34,285 nt of DNA from Clostridiales bacterium (GTDB lineage: Bacteria > Bacillota > Sulfobacillia > Sulfobacillales > Sulfobacillaceae), in NCBI GenBank assembly GCA_027365485.1, contig DAHXNH010000363.1, positions 1 through 34,285 of the forward strand, written 5' to 3'. The notes below the pieces were generated by a model, which saw nothing but the letters and a program-made list of their open reading frames with translations, was not told the origin of the DNA and did no database searches. The position numbers and the translations under genes were made by a program. This document shows, piece by piece, positions 1 to 7,075 of this stretch (positions are counted from its first letter, which is position 1; each line of letters begins with the position of its first letter).

Positions 1-117
1 ATTCGTTAAGGTGCGCACGGGAATCAACCGTCCCTCGCGCTCCCATTTCCGGAGCCCTTCGATACTCATCCCGAGCATCTTTGCGGCCTTGCCAATACTG
101 ACAAACTGTTCGTCCAT
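1..117 (-). CDS. IS607-type OrfA/TnpA (MerR-like HTH + serine resolvase), N-terminal part
   Basis: Only the first 39 codons lie in the window; the gene continues past the left edge. The translation starts MDEQFVSIGKAAKMLGMS and goes on to LRKWEREGRL. This is the MerR-like helix-turn-helix that opens IS607-family transposases, which have a small serine-resolvase domain behind it. The start is ATG at 117-115, preceded by AGGTGA at good spacing. The upstream DNA (about 120-180) is far more AT-rich than the rest of the window. A plain MerR or excisionase-like regulator is possible because the resolvase domain is not visible. Confidence 0.7.
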   Translation of the reverse strand, partial: MDEQFVSIGKAAKMLGMSIEGLRKWEREGRLIPVRTLTN

Positions 118-180
118 CGTTCTATCACCTAAATGAATTATAACATATTATATGACGTAATTGTATATGTATTACAAACA
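118..180 (-). promoter_or_regulatory. AT-rich promoter region of the IS607-type gene
   Basis: On the minus strand this stretch contains two TATAAT hexamers and a TTGTAA/TACAAT-like upstream element, just before the AGGTGA ribosome binding site. The base composition is strikingly AT-rich against GC-rich flanks, as expected of the terminus of a transferred element. Exact -35/-10 pairing is uncertain. Confidence 0.45.
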
Positions 181-594
181 GTTGCAACCTCCTTCAGCGC
201 TCCAGCTGGATCACGGCACGGCAAAGACGCTCATGGCTTGGATAACCCACCCATCGGCTAGACTGGACGGCCCGGGTTTCGGTATCCCCAAGATGCCATA
301 TGGCTCGCGCTGCCGCGTCGGAGTTGGGCGTTCATGGGCTCAGCTTCGCCGCTCCTACTGCTACTTCACTGCCAATTCTATCGGACTCTCTTGACCGGTC
401 ATTTCTCAGTTCCCATCGATCTTCCCCAGACTGTTTGTACTCATGGCGCCTTTTTCCAGAGGCCTTGGGCGCGGACTATCGGGTCGCCGACGCTATCCAC
501 CATCCTCGGCAGGAGCTGGGCCAACCCCTCAACAACGCCGATATCCTGGACGCGTTCGCCGGAGCCCAAGACTTACGCACCATTTGGGGCATGC
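181..594. other. Gene-poor stretch between the IS607-type gene and the ger operon
   Basis: Plus-strand open frames exist at about 161-394, 300-662 and 334-732. They lack a convincing ribosome binding site, have no recognisable domain, and the longest run into the 3' end of the germination permease gene. I see no RNA gene and no clear terminator. It may be degraded sequence next to the mobile element. Confidence 0.4.
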
Positions 595-1716
595 CTAACC
601 CTCGAAGGGATCGATACGACGATGCCGAATCCACCCGAGGAGGGGCGACAGAACACTGGTAAAGAGGGTCAATCCCAGCGCCACGGGGTCGACCCACGCC
701 AAGACCACATGCGTGGCTTCGAGGGGAGATGATAACGTAACCGAAATCGCCAACAAGAAGAGGATGCCACTCCAGACCATCCCAGTGCGCTGAGGTTGGG
801 TGAGTCCTAATGCATCTTCCAGGTTCAGAGTAAGCACCAACAGGGCGACCGCCTCATACAAGATGAGTGCGACGACCCAAGAAATCAGAATGAACAGCCC
901 GGGCCGACTAATGAAGAGGGCGGAGATGGTCAGATCGGAAAAAATGAAGGGCAACGGCCATTCGAGCTGGATCGGCGCATTGGGTCCGAGCGTTCCCACC
1001 ACCAAAGCATAAATCAAGATCAACATAAGCCCTTCAAATGCGATGGCGCCGAGCGCCCAATGACGAATGGTCGACCACGGCGCACCACGCACATAAGATC
1101 CTAAGGTCACAATCACCTCGCCTTGCACCCAAAGATACCAGGTCGACACCAAGGCCTTGGCAATGGGTCCTAGGGCAATCACGGATGACGGCCGCAGAGC
1201 GGCCATTTGATTCAAGTGCGGCGCTGCCATCGCCACCAACAGGAAAAGTGAAGCGATGGTCAGGGGGAACCAAAACTGAACATTTCGGGCCACCTGGCTC
1301 ACCGACTTCGAAGCCATCCAGCCAATCACCAAGACAATGCTGCCCTCGAAGATCCAAAGCGGCGTGCGCTGATAAAAGTTTACGTGCAGCATTTGGCTAA
1401 AGAGCGCCAATAAGGCGCCATCCAATCCCAGGTAGATGGCGAGGGTGCTGGCAAATAGCGGCCACCTCGCCCATCCCCAAATCGCCTGCATGCGGGTCAA
1501 CGATGACGAACCCTCAACGTGAGGCGGCCAAAGCGTCTGGAGCCAGACCAGCCCTAGCGCCAGGCCCACGGACACGAAGATCACCCAGGGGGCGTCCAAG
1601 CCCGCATCCTCGAGCACGGCGCTTGGCCAAATGTAGACGCCGCCCGCTACCACGGAGACGGCCACCATCAAGAAAAATTGACCCAAACTAATCGGTTCAA
1701 TTGGAACGGATTTCAT
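595..1716 (-). CDS. gerAB: GerAB/GerB-type spore germination permease
   Basis: This is the inner-membrane amino-acid-permease-like subunit of a GerA-type nutrient germinant receptor. The 373 residues form about ten hydrophobic membrane segments beginning right after a short N-terminus (ISLGQFFLMVAVSVVAGG), the usual length and architecture of the GerAB/APC-like family. The start ATG overlaps the end of gerAC by four bases, so translation is probably coupled. It is the last gene of an A-C-B operon; the more common order in Bacillus is A-B-C. In the family this subunit is thought to bind the germinant. Confidence 0.9.
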   Translation of the reverse strand: MKSVPIEPISLGQFFLMVAVSVVAGGVYIWPSAVLEDAGLDAPWVIFVSVGLALGLVWLQTLWPPHVEGSSSLTRMQAIWGWARWPLFASTLAIYLGLDGALLALFSQMLHVNFYQRTPLWIFEGSIVLVIGWMASKSVSQVARNVQFWFPLTIASLFLLVAMAAPHLNQMAALRPSSVIALGPIAKALVSTWYLWVQGEVIVTLGSYVRGAPWSTIRHWALGAIAFEGLMLILIYALVVGTLGPNAPIQLEWPLPFIFSDLTISALFISRPGLFILISWVVALILYEAVALLVLTLNLEDALGLTQPQRTGMVWSGILFLLAISVTLSSPLEATHVVLAWVDPVALGLTLFTSVLSPLLGWIRHRRIDPFEG

Positions 1717-2819
1717 CGCGCCAGTCCCTCCCCTTGCAATTTCACGTGTGCCCTAATCACCGCCTGGATGGGTAAAGTGGCCAACGCCTGAGGCGAAATC
1801 GCCGCTGCCGTCTGATTGTCCAACCAGGCGGCACGCTTGGCATAGCCGAAGGGATCGGTATGGGTCTGGTTAGCCCAGTGGATAGCGAGCCTGCTCAATT
1901 GAACCAAACGCGCTGCCGCTGCCTGCTCGATGGCCCGCTCGGCGGCTCGGGTGATCAGGAGTCCTGCGGGCATATCCGCCATTTCCCCTTTGGCATGAAT
2001 GACGATGCGAACATCGACGGCGGTCGGGGTCAAGCGCACACGCGAAGTGGCCTCGTCGATAATGGGAGAAATCATATAACTGGTACCGTCGCAATTGACC
2101 TTCTGGGTGCCGCTTTTCACTTTGCCCATCAAATAGGCAAAGCCTTGAGTGGCCTGGCGAGGCATCAAAAGAGGCTTGCCCTGTACCGGATAGACTAATA
2201 TCTGGTAGACGGCTGCACCTTCTTGGGTTTCGGTAAAGACCGGTAGGACTGGAGAGACGCCGGGAGTCACCGCGCGATCCCACCACTGCCAGGCTCGCAC
2301 GCCAAAGTCGGCCGCATGGCACGCGGGGCAGTCAAAATAACTAGAAAGGTTATAGACCGGGACCACAGTTTGCGGCGAGGGATGCATCAAAAGCGTCGAC
2401 GGAGAAGTTTGGCTGGCCGCCAGCCAAACTTGTGCCGGTATCGCACCGGTCAAAATCATCGAGTCCATAATGCGTGCCAGCTGACCGCGGGTGAGCCTTG
2501 CACTCAGGTCGACCAGTTGCACATCTCCCGTCGAGACTTCCCGGCTAGCTTGAAGTTGCACTCGGTGGAGGGCTTTTTGGTACGACTCGGCCTTGGCCGT
2601 GATGGTATAAAATTCATCGGATCGACCGAGGGAGGAGATACTGGAGGCGGTCACGGTAACGTTTGGGAAGAGCAGTGTCCAGTGATGGTCGGCAGATACC
2701 CCTATGGCCAACACAATCGCGCGTTGCTCAATCGCCCGCTGATCCCAACAGCCAGTCAGCAGAAAAAGCCCGAGACCGCCAATGAAAAGTCCGCGGATGC
2801 GCCGAGAGAGGCGGCTCAC
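1713..2819 (-). CDS. gerAC: Ger(x)C family germinant receptor lipoprotein GerAC
   Basis: This is the membrane-anchored lipoprotein subunit of the germinant receptor. A basic N-terminus and hydrophobic core run into the lipobox FLLTGC with Cys24, followed by WDQRAIEQRAIVLAIGV, the classic Ger(x)C opening. At 368 residues it has the family's usual length. It overlaps gerAA upstream and gerAB downstream by four bases each, so the three genes form one tight operon. A CPAC pair (about residues 164-167) is visible but its role is unknown. Confidence 0.92.
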   Translation of the reverse strand: MSRLSRRIRGLFIGGLGLFLLTGCWDQRAIEQRAIVLAIGVSADHHWTLLFPNVTVTASSISSLGRSDEFYTITAKAESYQKALHRVQLQASREVSTGDVQLVDLSARLTRGQLARIMDSMILTGAIPAQVWLAASQTSPSTLLMHPSPQTVVPVYNLSSYFDCPACHAADFGVRAWQWWDRAVTPGVSPVLPVFTETQEGAAVYQILVYPVQGKPLLMPRQATQGFAYLMGKVKSGTQKVNCDGTSYMISPIIDEATSRVRLTPTAVDVRIVIHAKGEMADMPAGLLITRAAERAIEQAAAARLVQLSRLAIHWANQTHTDPFGYAKRAAWLDNQTAAAISPQALATLPIQAVIRAHVKLQGEGLAR

Positions 2820-4387
2820 GGTCGCCCTCGGCCAAGATGTGCGGGGGGCTCCTCCATCGACGGCCCCATCATAGTCGGATGGGTAGGCCGAGCGTCAGAT
2901 AGACGCCGACGCATGAGCGTCCACGGAAGTCGGATCAAAAAATCGAACCAATCACTCAGCCGAAACGGTGCCAGCGGTTCGAAGTAGGGGGCGCCAAACG
3001 ATTGCAGAGAAATCAAGCTCCCAATCATCCAGACGGTGACCAGCACCAAGCCGTAAATTCCCACGATGGCTGCGGCGATTAACATCATGATGTTGACGAC
3101 CCGCCAAGTACCGGTGAGTTCATAGACGGGCACGGTATAAAAGCTTAAGGCGGTCAGCGTAATCACAAAAATCATCTGCGGGCTGACAATCCCCGCCTTG
3201 ACCACTACCGTGCCGACAATGATGGCACCCACCGTACCAATCGTGGTGGACAGCACCTTGGGCAATCGGATGGCGGCTTCGCGCAAAACCTCAATCACAA
3301 ACACCATTAAAAAAGCTTCCACTATTGGAGGAAAGGGCAGACCGGCATGATTGCCGGCGGTCAGAATCAAGAGGGAATGCGGAATGAGATCGGTGTTCAC
3401 CTCGGTCAAGGCAATATAGAGCGCCGGCAGATAGACGCCCACGGCCCAAGCGGTTAATCGCAGCACGCGCACAAACGACACATCATACCAGGCCTCGTCG
3501 TAATCCAGTGCCGTGCGATAAAAGTCGGCCAGGGGCGATGGTGCCACCAGAGCAAAGGGATCGCCGTCGATCAATACCAACACCTTACCCTGCAACAATT
3601 CATGACAGGCCGTATCCACCCGTTCGGTCGCCCGCATTGTAGGGAAAATCGATCGCGGATGATCGCGAATGAGGCCAGAGAGCAGAGTTCCAGTCGCTCG
3701 CCCGTCAATCGCCACGTGTTCCAGTCGTTCTACCACCACCTGAATCAACGCCGGATTGGCCAAGCCCTCTAAATAGGTGACGACCACAGCGGTATGTTGC
3801 AACCGCCCTAAAGTGATGGAATGAAAACGAAGACCCGGATACGAAAACTCCCGGCGCAGTTGACTCATCTGCACGGCGATGACTTCATTAAACGCTTCGT
3901 CCGGTCCCCGGATGGTTTGTTCTGTCTTGGGAGTGGAGATGCTGCGCTGCGGCAACTTGGAAACACCAATACTCCATACCCATGAGAGCCCAGGAGCGAA
4001 CACGAGCGTACGCCCCTGGGTTAAGTCGTGCAAAATTTCGGGCCACCGGCGGCGTGGACGGATGTCCCCCGACAAGAGCATCGCGTGGGCCCAAGTACTC
4101 GGTGCCAACCGGGTTTTGAGTAATGGGGCAATGATCGACGAATCTACCAGTTGGGCATCGACCAGCCCATCAATATACCCCAACAACACCCCGTCGGGTT
4201 GGCACGCTGGCGAGTTCAGTTTTCGCAAGATAACGTCGGGACTAGACCCCATGCTCATCTGGACGTGCGCATAGGCGGCGTCAATATCGGGCGTGTACCA
4301 AGCCCCTTCGGGCAACATTTGGTCAATCTGATCCAGAGCCATGGCAGCCATGGCTGCCATGGCCTCCAGTTCCTTGCAGTCCACCAA
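2816..4387 (-). CDS. gerAA: GerA spore germination protein (GerAA)
   Basis: This is the large A subunit of the germinant receptor. It has a soluble N-terminal domain of about 280 residues (containing LVLIDGDPFALV, a typical GerA segment) and then about five or six membrane segments (GNHAGLPFPPIVEAFLMV is the conserved GerA core). The length of 523 residues fits the family. GGGAGG sits six bases before TTG at 4387; GTG three bases later is an alternative start. The early coding region has MAAMAAMA, encoded by a perfect 26-base palindrome at 4338-4363. It is the first gene of the ger operon, which should be expressed in the forespore, but I found no good sigma-G promoter directly upstream. Confidence 0.93.
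   Translation of the reverse strand: MVDCKELEAMAAMAAMALDQIDQMLPEGAWYTPDIDAAYAHVQMSMGSSPDVILRKLNSPACQPDGVLLGYIDGLVDAQLVDSSIIAPLLKTRLAPSTWAHAMLLSGDIRPRRRWPEILHDLTQGRTLVFAPGLSWVWSIGVSKLPQRSISTPKTEQTIRGPDEAFNEVIAVQMSQLRREFSYPGLRFHSITLGRLQHTAVVVTYLEGLANPALIQVVVERLEHVAIDGRATGTLLSGLIRDHPRSIFPTMRATERVDTACHELLQGKVLVLIDGDPFALVAPSPLADFYRTALDYDEAWYDVSFVRVLRLTAWAVGVYLPALYIALTEVNTDLIPHSLLILTAGNHAGLPFPPIVEAFLMVFVIEVLREAAIRLPKVLSTTIGTVGAIIVGTVVVKAGIVSPQMIFVITLTALSFYTVPVYELTGTWRVVNIMMLIAAAIVGIYGLVLVTVWMIGSLISLQSFGAPYFEPLAPFRLSDWFDFLIRLPWTLMRRRLSDARPTHPTMMGPSMEEPPAHLGRGRP
4338..4363. repeat. Perfect 26-base palindrome inside the gerAA 5' coding region
   Basis: The sequence from 4338 to 4363 equals its own reverse complement, centred on CCATGG. 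It encodes MAAMAAM about nine codons into gerAA. In the mRNA it could form a hairpin close to the ribosome binding region. Confidence 0.85.
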
Positions 4388-4455
4388 CTTTGACCTCCCT
4401 TCGCGGCATTGACTCGATCCGTGTAGCCGGCGAATTTACCCCCAAAAATCTCACC

Positions 4456-4626
4456 CTAGCGGGCGATGAGCACCAGGGATAGGGCTTCATTTTCGCACCA
4501 ATCTACCGAGTTGGTGCCAATCAAAGCGAGATCCACGCCTGCTTGACCCAGGGTCACCAGAGCCTTGGACCAGACTGCTATGGCAATTTGGCGATCGAAC
4601 CCGCGGTGAGACAGAGCCCGGTACAA
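4456..4626 (-). pseudogene. Unidentified gene remnant upstream of gerAA
   Basis: A 56-codon reading frame on the minus strand ends in TAG at 4458-4456. It reads like real protein, including GFDRQIAIAVWSKALVTLG and then DLALIGTNS. The frame opens just after tandem stop codons and has no credible start signal, so it looks like the C-terminal remnant of a lost gene. I do not recognise the family with confidence; an acetyltransferase-like C-terminus is a weak possibility. It lies between the small Ala/Gln-rich gene and the ger operon, in the same orientation. Confidence 0.35.
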
Positions 4627-4675
4627 TGCTTATTACCAACAAGGCGATCGGATTTGACCAAAATCGTGCCGTAGT

Positions 4676-4700
4676 GGTGCCCTAGTCCCGCTAGGGCACC
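4676..4700. terminator. Stem-loop downstream of the Ala/Gln-rich gene
   Basis: A perfect 10-bp inverted repeat (GGTGCCCTAG / CTAGGGCACC) with a 5-base loop sits about 45 bases past the stop of the minus-strand gene at 4747. There is no proper T-tract, only GATTTTGG ten bases further. A terminator role is plausible but not proved. Confidence 0.45.
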
Positions 4701-4746
4701 CCTTGGAACTCACTCTAACGACTGGCTTAGGACACCATCCCAGCAA

Positions 4747-4998
4747 TCATTGCCAAGGCGTAGTCGAAAAACTGTTGGGTGCGGCCGCGCCTTGGGCGAC
4801 ACTGATCGATGCGTCTTGGGTGGCAATCAAAATACTTTGGGCCGCTTGGCCAGCTTGAGCGGCGGCGGCAGCAGCGTTTTGAGCCGCTTGGGCGGCTTGT
4901 TGAGCGGCCGCCTGCGCCTGATAAGCTAATTGAATGGTACGATTGGCCTGGTCGGCGGCGTGCTTGCGTGCGTCCATAGGATCGTAATCTCCCTTCAT
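4747..4998 (-). CDS. Small Ala/Gln-rich protein, probably forespore-expressed
   Basis: This 83-residue protein is dominated by Ala and Gln (AYQAQAAAQQAAQAAQNAA), giving a long amphipathic, probably coiled or helical, middle. There is no signal peptide, membrane segment or Cys. I do not recognise a family. The start ATG at 4998 has AAAGGG just upstream; ATG at codon 8 with GGGAG upstream is an alternative. A sequence matching the Bacillus sigma-G consensus lies 25-54 bases upstream of the start, and the germination operon is next door. A spore core or spore-specific structural protein is therefore the best inference; it does not resemble the alpha/beta-type SASP sequence. Confidence 0.7.
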   Translation of the reverse strand: MKGDYDPMDARKHAADQANRTIQLAYQAQAAAQQAAQAAQNAAAAAAQAGQAAQSILIATQDASISVAQGAAAPNSFSTTPWQ

Positions 4999-5022
4999 CG
5001 GGCCCTTTCAGGACACCGTCGC

Positions 5023-5052
5023 TAATATGTCCCCAGTCCCTGGGCCCTATGC
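5023..5052 (-). promoter_or_regulatory. Sigma-G-type promoter for the Ala/Gln-rich gene
   Basis: On the minus strand GCATA (5052-5048) is followed after exactly 18 bases by CATATTA (5029-5023). This fits the B. subtilis sigma-G consensus (GHATR, 18 bases, CATWHTA) at every position. The predicted transcript starts near 5016 and gives a short leader before the ATG at 4998. Confidence 0.65.
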
Positions 5053-5460
5053 AAGAAATCTCACGCATCCAGCGCGCACTTCTCCGTCATCTTCGCTCGG
5101 ATGAAAAAGTCGCTCGGAGGAGAAAGAAATCTCGAGCCCACTGTCCCCCCTCCCTCCACCGTCTTCGCCGTGCGGGCCTCGCCCCAACGGCTCCTCGGGC
5201 CAAACATTCGGTGCGAATGGAGGCAGGCGCAAATTCAACCCACCTGCGCCAAGCACGAGCCCGCTGATACTTTTTCCCCTCGAGACGTCTGATTCTGACC
5301 GTCAGATGGCGGGCACTTAAAAGACCTCGTGAGGAGTCTAGACCGCAAGAGAATCTCTAAAGCTCGTCAAAAATTAGAGGACTTTTGGCATCCCCTAGCG
5401 AATTTACCCCGTTACTGTCGAATTTTAAGCGACTCCGCAATTCGAGAAAGCTGGTGGGTT
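5053..5460. other. Non-coding stretch before minC
   Basis: Open frames on both strands at about 5047-5292 lack ribosome binding sites and family features. The minC frame is open upstream to GTG at 5329, but that GTG has no ribosome binding site and the extra 44 residues do not look like MinC. I see no convincing RNA element. Confidence 0.4.
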
Positions 5461-6126
5461 ATGGAAATCAAGGGGGATACGAAGCGTGGTCTTCGGCTTG
5501 TCGCAGAAGGCTTCGCCAACGAGCAAGACCTAATCAGCGATTTGGAAACGACCCTTGCCCGGAGGCACGCTTTTTTGACGGGCGCCGTGCTGGATGTCCA
5601 AATCAACGATTTTCCGCTGAGTCCCGACCTTTTAAGCCAAGTTGCGGGAGCCTTTAGCCGCTATCCCGATCTTTCTTTAAACGGCATCGTCCGCGACCCT
5701 AGACGTCCTGACCCGATACCCTTGGCCCGCCGATCCGAACCCACGTTGGTAGTTCGCCATACCTTGCGTTCCGGCCAACATCAATTTCACCAAGGCGACC
5801 TCATCATCATTGGTGACGTCAATCCAGGTGCCACGGTAGCTGCTACCGGAGACATTTTGGTTTTTGGCCGCCTACGCGGAAACGCTCACGCCGGTCAACC
5901 GCAAGATGTGAGCAAATCCGTCTACGCATTAACCTTTACTCCCGCCCAAGTCCGGATCGGCTCGCTCTTAGCCATTGGTGAGAGCTCTTCGCATGATCCA
6001 GAATTTGCCCACGTAGAAAACGGTCAAGTCGTGGTTGAGGCCTGGACCGACGTGAAGTTGCCGGACGTCGTCACTGAAGAAGGCCGGCCGCGACGTGCTA
6101 AGGTTGCTCACCCATCCTCGTCCTAG
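5461..6126 (+). CDS. minC: Septum site-determining protein MinC
   Basis: This is an inhibitor of FtsZ ring assembly that works with MinD to keep division away from the poles. From ATG at 5461 the protein is 221 residues. The N-terminal domain starts MEIKGDTKRGLRLV, the expected MinC opening. The C-terminal beta-helix domain is clear (QFHQGDLIIIGDVNPGA, then GDILVFGRLRGNAHAG). I chose 5461 because homologues start at this motif and GGTGGG lies upstream. No minD is adjacent; the Mrp ATPase in this window is not MinD. Confidence 0.88.
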   Translation: MEIKGDTKRGLRLVAEGFANEQDLISDLETTLARRHAFLTGAVLDVQINDFPLSPDLLSQVAGAFSRYPDLSLNGIVRDPRRPDPIPLARRSEPTLVVRHTLRSGQHQFHQGDLIIIGDVNPGATVAATGDILVFGRLRGNAHAGQPQDVSKSVYALTFTPAQVRIGSLLAIGESSSHDPEFAHVENGQVVVEAWTDVKLPDVVTEEGRPRRAKVAHPSSS

Positions 6127-6142
6127 CTTGTGCAATGCTTCT

Positions 6143-6173
6143 CCCCCGAGTCTGATAGAATGAGAGTCGGGGG
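6143..6173. repeat. Inverted repeat masking the DUF2103 ribosome binding site
   Basis: CCCCCGA (6143-6149) pairs with TCGGGGG (6167-6173) across a 17-base loop. The 3' arm is the G-rich stretch that would serve as ribosome binding site for the next gene, so the stem could lower its translation. It could also simply mark the end of the minC transcript, but it has no T-tract. Confidence 0.4.
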
Positions 6174-6186
6174 GGATGGGGTTTGC

Positions 6187-6525
6187 GTGGCCAAATATCG
6201 ACGATCCAAAATCAAGCGTAAACATCACGTAGTAAAGGAATTAGAACCGGGCTTGACTTTTTTAAGCGGGCTGTCTCAAGTGGACGGCATTATTCCGGGT
6301 CCTATCCATCCCAAGACTGGCGGAAAAGTTGGCTTCAGTTTTCAATATTGGACGCCCAGCGGATTCAAACTTTTGGGCCGGTCCAGTGGTGCCGTACAGG
6401 AAATCTTCGTCATTTCCACTCATCCTGTCGACGTCACCACGGCTTTTCATCAAGCGGGGTATCTCGGTGAAGCCCTCATTCCGACTCCCGAACCCAAACC
6501 GCCCGAGGGGCACCGTGTACCCTGA
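6187..6525 (+). CDS. DUF2103 family protein
   Basis: This predicted small protein has 112 residues from GTG at 6187. Its features match my memory of the DUF2103 family (sometimes described as putative metal-binding): the opening VAKYRRSKIKRKH, then IIPGPIHPKTGG, and SSGAVQEIFVIS. The function is unknown. The start was chosen because the family begins at this K-Y-R-R-S-K segment and a G-rich ribosome binding site precedes it; ATG at 6160 is an alternative. It follows minC by 60 bases in the same orientation. Confidence 0.72.
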   Translation: MAKYRRSKIKRKHHVVKELEPGLTFLSGLSQVDGIIPGPIHPKTGGKVGFSFQYWTPSGFKLLGRSSGAVQEIFVISTHPVDVTTAFHQAGYLGEALIPTPEPKPPEGHRVP

Positions 6526-6583
6526 GTAAGGATGGGTTGCTCAGGGGCATTGTGTTCGTAAAACGGCAGACAGGCAGGTAGGC

Positions 6584-7075
6584 ATGTCTAGTGTAAACGA
6601 AGCCAAAGTGCGCCAAGAAGGGCTGGAGGCCTGCTCATCCATCGCCTGCGCGAAGGCGGACTTCGAGTCACCCCGGATCGGCTGACCATTTTTCGTGAGC
6701 TCTCCCAAACCCGACATCCCTTGCCCAAGCCAGAGTTGGTCGAGCGGCTCAAATCCGCTGGCATTAATCAGGCGATGGTTTAGCGTGTCCTCGATTTATT
6801 TACGGCATTATTAATTTACGGCATTGAAGATAGTGCATGCCGTGCTCTTACCCCATGGGGTGGTAGGTTATGAACCTTTACCGCCCTTTCGCGACCATCA
6901 CCACCACATCGTCTGTGCCTCCTGTGGCACCATGGCCGACCTGTACGAGTGCGATATTGACCAGGTCATTCAGCACGACTTGCAACCCATTGGCTTTATT
7001 CCCATTTCGCATGCGCTCGAAGTGGTTGGCCTCTGCCGAGCTTGTCAGTCTTCGGACCCGCATCGGCCGAGCTAG
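6584..7075 (+). pseudogene. Fur/PerR/Zur-family regulator, inactivated
   Basis: This is the remains of a ferric-uptake-regulator-type repressor. The winged-helix half reads LREGGLRVTPDRLTIFRELS and then PKPELVERLKSAGINQAMV. The metal-binding half reads DHHHHIVCASCG with a second CRAC pair near the end. Three lesions break it: a one-base deletion near 6630 shifts the frame after the N-terminus, TAG at 6781-6783 replaces the Tyr expected in the recognition helix, and a 16-base duplication around 6798-6825 shifts the frame between the two domains. Removing that duplication joins FTAL to KIVHAV in frame. The start ATG at 6584 has an AGG-rich region before it. An isolated C-terminal frame from 6824 remains open. 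Confidence 0.85.
6798..6825. repeat. 16-base duplication inside the Fur pseudogene
   Basis: ATTTACGGCATT occurs at 6798-6809 and again at 6814-6825, a spacing of 16 bases. The extra 16 bases are not a multiple of three and cause the frame change between the two Fur domains. Confidence 0.8.

Follow-up and report, generated by a model that had tools for sequence, protein, structure and literature searches.

A small gene upstream of a germination operon

The window, i.e., the whole stretch of DNA analysed (34,285 nucleotides of a Sulfobacillaceae genome), carries on its minus strand three germination genes, which encode a gerA-type receptor A subunit (2816-4387; PF03323, E 2e-136), a gerC-type lipoprotein subunit (1713-2819; PF25198 and PF05504) and a gerB-type permease subunit (595-1716; PF03845). 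Upstream of them on the same strand lies a gene (4747-4977) for an alanine- and glutamine-rich protein of 76 residues, and the Pfam matches agree with the sequence-only reading, which had placed a small open reading frame beside a germination operon. The frame is present at 4998-4747, where its full extent corresponds to 83 residues, and has a homologue of 76 residues and 66% identity in a Sulfobacillus acidophilus-like MAG (G019). The homologue starts at the methionine equivalent to position 4977, with a stop codon two codons upstream, and both genes carry a Shine-Dalgarno-like sequence before this start (AAGGGAGA at 4988-4995 on the minus strand of the window, GAGGAGAT at the equivalent place in the homologue). 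Thus, the frame described earlier exists, but its true start is probably ATG 4977 rather than 4998, giving a protein of 76 and not 83 amino acids.

Comparison of the two homologues further indicates that the frame is coding. Substitutions at the first, second and third codon positions number 8, 7 and 30 over the first 56 codons, against 11, 11 and 13 over the final 20, and the residues PWQ at the C-terminal end are kept in both proteins, a pattern that points to a conserved helical body under selection followed by a looser tail. Judged by this conservation, the small frame is a real coding gene. That it is a low-complexity open frame without coding function is scarcely credible: its composition is indeed of low complexity and two copies are known, but these share their length, start and C-terminal PWQ and show a third-position substitution bias between two genera, and the codon-position conservation largely refutes this reading.

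Two further features of the window were observed. Positions 1-195, at the end of the contig, belong to a multi-copy repeat with copies up to 99% identical in this genome and further copies in all four relatives searched; it has no Rfam match (none was obtained in window positions 1-7000) and may be the end of a mobile element or an undescribed repeat. At 6580-7075 on the plus strand, a gene for a Fur-like regulator looks broken by an in-frame stop and frame changes, whereas the same-genus sister genome (G001) encodes the regulator intact in a single ORF of 171 amino acids (L108, 3658-4173).

A candidate forespore promoter

In Bacillus subtilis, promoters of the forespore sigma factor sigma-G take the consensus form GHATR-N18-CATNHTA. 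The minus strand across the candidate promoter region reads TTGCATAGGGCCCAGGGACTGGGGACATATTAGCG, and direct reading together with pattern matching locates in it GCATA-N18-CATATTA at 5052-5023, with a -35 element at 5048-5052 and, after an 18-nt spacer, a -10 element at 5023-5029 that was also evaluated by matrix and mismatch scans. This site agrees with the Bacillus consensus (GHATR, 17-18 nt, CATNHTA) at all specified positions and in spacing, as the sequence-only reading had stated. It is the sole match to GCATA-N15..19-CATNHTA in the 34-kb window, where 0.13 matches are expected by chance and at least one occurred in 11 of 100 shuffles; shuffling the 100-nt region 5' of the small ORF 3000 times never produced an exact GHATR-N17/18-CATNHTA. 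Moreover, GGACATATTA, which overlaps CATATTA, fits the generally known sigma-F -10 consensus at 9 of 10 positions and lies 15 nt from GCATA. Since sigma-F promoters commonly have a 15-nt spacer (PMC5942855), use of the site by sigma-F, or by sigma-F and sigma-G in turn, is possible.

Pattern searches across the genome (4.93 Mb) returned 25 exact matches to GHATR-N18-CATNHTA, compared with 6 for a reversed control pattern. The motif is therefore enriched in this genome but not rare, and since several of its matches fall within unrelated genes, it is by itself no proof of a promoter. Correspondingly, the match at 5052-5023 could be coincidental and the small gene expressed in vegetative growth or under stress from another promoter, in keeping with these genomic matches, with the five window positions that score as high on a family-specific matrix (see below) and with the location of the G019 homologue away from spore genes. 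We regard this as quite unlikely, given that an exact match in so short an upstream region has a chance of about 0.1% or less, that a promoter scan detected no sigma-70-type promoter in 4300-5400, and that the homologue carries, at a comparable distance from its start, a site with one mismatch (GAATA-N18-CAGCTTA, 37 nt 5'; P = 0.024). The latter candidate scores poorly on the Sulfobacillaceae matrix, and the upstream regions of the two homologues otherwise show no significant alignment (P = 0.36).

The family-specific matrix was derived from SASP genes, which are sigma-G-dependent (PMC3533761); 38 SASP upstream regions were collected from Sulfobacillaceae, and 32 of them were used. The SASP loci L023-L052 and L112-L127 share a promoter of the form GGGTA/GGTTA, 17 (sometimes 18) nt, [C/G/A]ATACTA, with the end of the -10 element usually 30-33 nt 5' of the start. 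Compared with the Bacillus sigma-G consensus, they favour a -35 element unlike GHATR and C or A as the fifth base of the -10 element, and most have a 17-nt spacer. On this matrix the window site reaches 10.8 bits, while most SASP genes score 14-20, and five positions across the whole window score at least 10.8. Hence, the promoter described as near-perfect is so against the Bacillus consensus but only mid-scoring against the SASP matrix of its own family, and as a forespore promoter for Sulfobacillaceae it is plausible, not outstanding. In a separate observation made during these scans, a protein of 49 amino acids was found 29 nt behind an exact sigma-G-type site, GTATG-N18-CATACTA, which is among the 25 genomic matches (L060; G000:C57, about 11033), and it resembles the C-terminal part of alpha/beta SASP (PF00269, 13 bits, below cut-off).

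The window site is closer to the sites found before gerA homologues than to SASP promoters. The Bacillus sigma-G consensus is seen before such homologues both in this genome and in that of a relative (G005): this genome has a second gerA operon (L053) with an exact GHATR-N18-CATNHTA 24 nt upstream, and 8 of 19 gerA homologues of relatives are closely preceded by a site that departs from the Bacillus consensus at one position at most, with GCATA-N18-CATGTTA and GCATG-N18-CATCCTA as examples. GerA-type receptors are generally encoded in sigma-G-controlled operons (PMC4021175).

Transcript, genomic setting and distribution

This resemblance raises the question of which genes the promoter serves. 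It may belong to the ger operon. The small gene would then be transcribed ahead of gerA-gerC-gerB as the leading cistron, and would either serve the receptor or be a passenger, without a separate spore-core role. Such an arrangement would account for the likeness of the site to those of gerA homologues and for the scarcity of alternatives: between the small gene and gerA the best site reaches 5.8 bits on the SASP matrix, i.e., there is no good forespore site, and in the 150 nt before gerA the best site has 4 mismatches to the Bacillus sigma-G consensus. The ger genes also lie on the strand of the small gene, and the segment that carries them all is missing at the equivalent place in the sister genome. 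However, about 360 nt separate the stop codon of the small gene from the start of gerA, and RNA folding predicts a stable 10-bp hairpin between them (GGTGCCCTAG-CGGGA-CTAGGGCACC, 4676-4700, minus strand). The hairpin has no adjacent U tract and was not called by a terminator scan; it is a possible weak terminator. Likewise, the G019 homologue is predicted to have a strong hairpin after its stop codon, and it stands alone, without ger genes, while the regions upstream of the other gerA homologues that were examined contain no small alanine- and glutamine-rich ORF. On balance, we consider it somewhat unlikely that the small gene is simply the leading cistron of the ger transcript.

The sister genome is about 93% identical to the window from 5149 onward, but not before, and contains no close relative of the window ger operon (best GerA 52%). 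The small gene thus sits, together with the ger operon, on a segment that this species acquired or that its sister lost or relocated. By eye, an IS607-type resolvase-like ORF is seen near the synteny break in the sister genome (L108, 5590-5865; break at about 5149 of the window).

The small gene is present in 2 of 34 Sulfobacillaceae genomes and was not found in the sister genome. No further true relative was detected in 42 genomes of the order, in genome_contigs or in viral contigs, and a 398-genome sample of the phylum gave marginal low-scoring matches only. The other matches are weak, correspond to alanine-rich stretches of larger or unrelated frames, and were rejected as homologues. As 32 of the 34 family genomes, that of the sister species among them, lack the gene, it is dispensable for sporulation. 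The sole homologue belongs to another spore-forming Sulfobacillaceae genome, which agrees with the sequence-only reading. In contrast, this copy does not stand next to spore genes but (by eye) between a citramalate-synthase-like and a permease-like gene of G019, which, with its imperfect promoter match, goes part of the way towards refuting that reading by its own standard.

A predicted alanine-rich helix and its possible role in the spore

The 76-residue protein contains 28 alanines and 14 glutamines; its charged residues are three basic (K+R) and three acidic. AlphaFold, run on a two-sequence alignment, predicts a single low-confidence helix spanning residues 2-63 with a mean pLDDT of 72, and in both homologues a period of 3.5 residues per turn gives the largest hydrophobic moment (1.12 and 1.07; shuffle P <= 0.0003). 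This 3.5-residue hydrophobic periodicity within a continuous helix suggests a heptad coiled coil of the alanine-zipper kind, in which alanines form one face and glutamines a stripe. In agreement with the earlier statement that the protein looks like no known spore protein, Pfam and NCBIfam give it no family, and the SASP models PF04259 (gamma-type) and PF00269 (alpha/beta-type) remain unmatched.

The closest functional idea is perhaps the gamma-type SASP, itself a small spore-core protein, as an analogue rather than as a family. Like SspE, the protein is small (76 amino acids, compared with an 84-position model), rich in glutamine and alanine and poor in bulky hydrophobic residues, and its gene is a candidate for sigma-G control in a spore-forming bacterium. 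Unlike SspE, it lacks a PF04259 match, an EFASE-type protease site and a tandem repeat of the SspE kind, and it is predicted to form a heptad helix whereas gamma-type SASP are unstructured. Gamma-type SASP peptides are rich in glutamine and carry EFASE (PMC3003637); neither protein contains an E[FIVL]A motif resembling the GPR protease recognition site, and neither matches PF04259 up to E 10, so that membership in this family was rejected. Gamma-type SASP are reported from most bacilli and from no clostridia, and SASP content is reported to differ between close relatives (PMC3533761), an observation that suits, without showing, a lineage-specific replacement. PF04259 is itself absent from all 34 Sulfobacillaceae genomes, with a positive control in B. 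subtilis. Alpha/beta-type SASP were rejected for the small protein for want of a PF00269 match; true SASPs are encoded elsewhere in this genome. The alanine-zipper lipoproteins (PF11839, Lpp-like) were likewise set aside: they share an alanine-rich heptad helix, but the homologue scores below the cut-off (11.1 bits, E 0.5, against 23.1), the window protein has no match at all, and, unlike Lpp, the small protein has neither signal peptide nor lipobox and would be cytoplasmic in a Gram-positive spore former.

Expression in the forespore with a role in the spore core is favoured by the exact upstream site, the occurrence of the same consensus before gerA operons, the one-mismatch site of the homologue, the lack of a detected sigma-70-type promoter, the codon-position conservation, the helix with its heptad moment and the absence of gamma-type SASP from the family. 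Against it speak the moderate score of the site on the SASP matrix, the setting of the homologue and the poor score and lack of alignment of its upstream region, the absence of the gene from nearly all family genomes and that of a GPR-type cleavage site. Weighing these, our best explanation, to which we give even credence, is a lineage-specific gene for a spore-core protein that is transcribed in the forespore and has a role like that of the gamma-type SASP. Sigma-G RNA polymerase would bind GCATA-N18-CATATTA, perhaps after earlier use of the same site by sigma-F, and the transcript would be translated from ATG 4977 into a soluble 76-residue protein. This would fold as one long helix and self-associate through its alanine face, leaving the glutamine stripe outside, and would accumulate in the spore core, most likely in a structural, packing or amino-acid-reserve role. 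We infer forespore expression, oligomerisation and accumulation in spores from the features above; a reserve or packing role is speculative. Broader still, and a long shot, is the idea of an undescribed class of alanine-zipper proteins, expressed in the forespore, that some Sulfobacillaceae use in place of the gamma-type SASP, either as a compact store of amino acids or for packing the core.

The proposal of an undescribed forespore protein thus retains a real conserved gene of no known family behind a plausible promoter, and is weakened by the setting of the homologue, by the imperfect promoter match of that homologue and by the alternative of a promoter that serves the ger operon; it is plausible, if somewhat overstated. 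The gene is an orphan of patchy distribution that is probably expressed in the forespore. The Sulfobacillaceae-specific SASP promoter consensus is useful for forespore gene annotation in this family. If forespore expression is confirmed, the small gene would add to the spore proteins that are confined to single lineages, here an acidophilic one far removed from Bacillus, and would be an example of the ease with which small proteins of the spore core arise and disappear.
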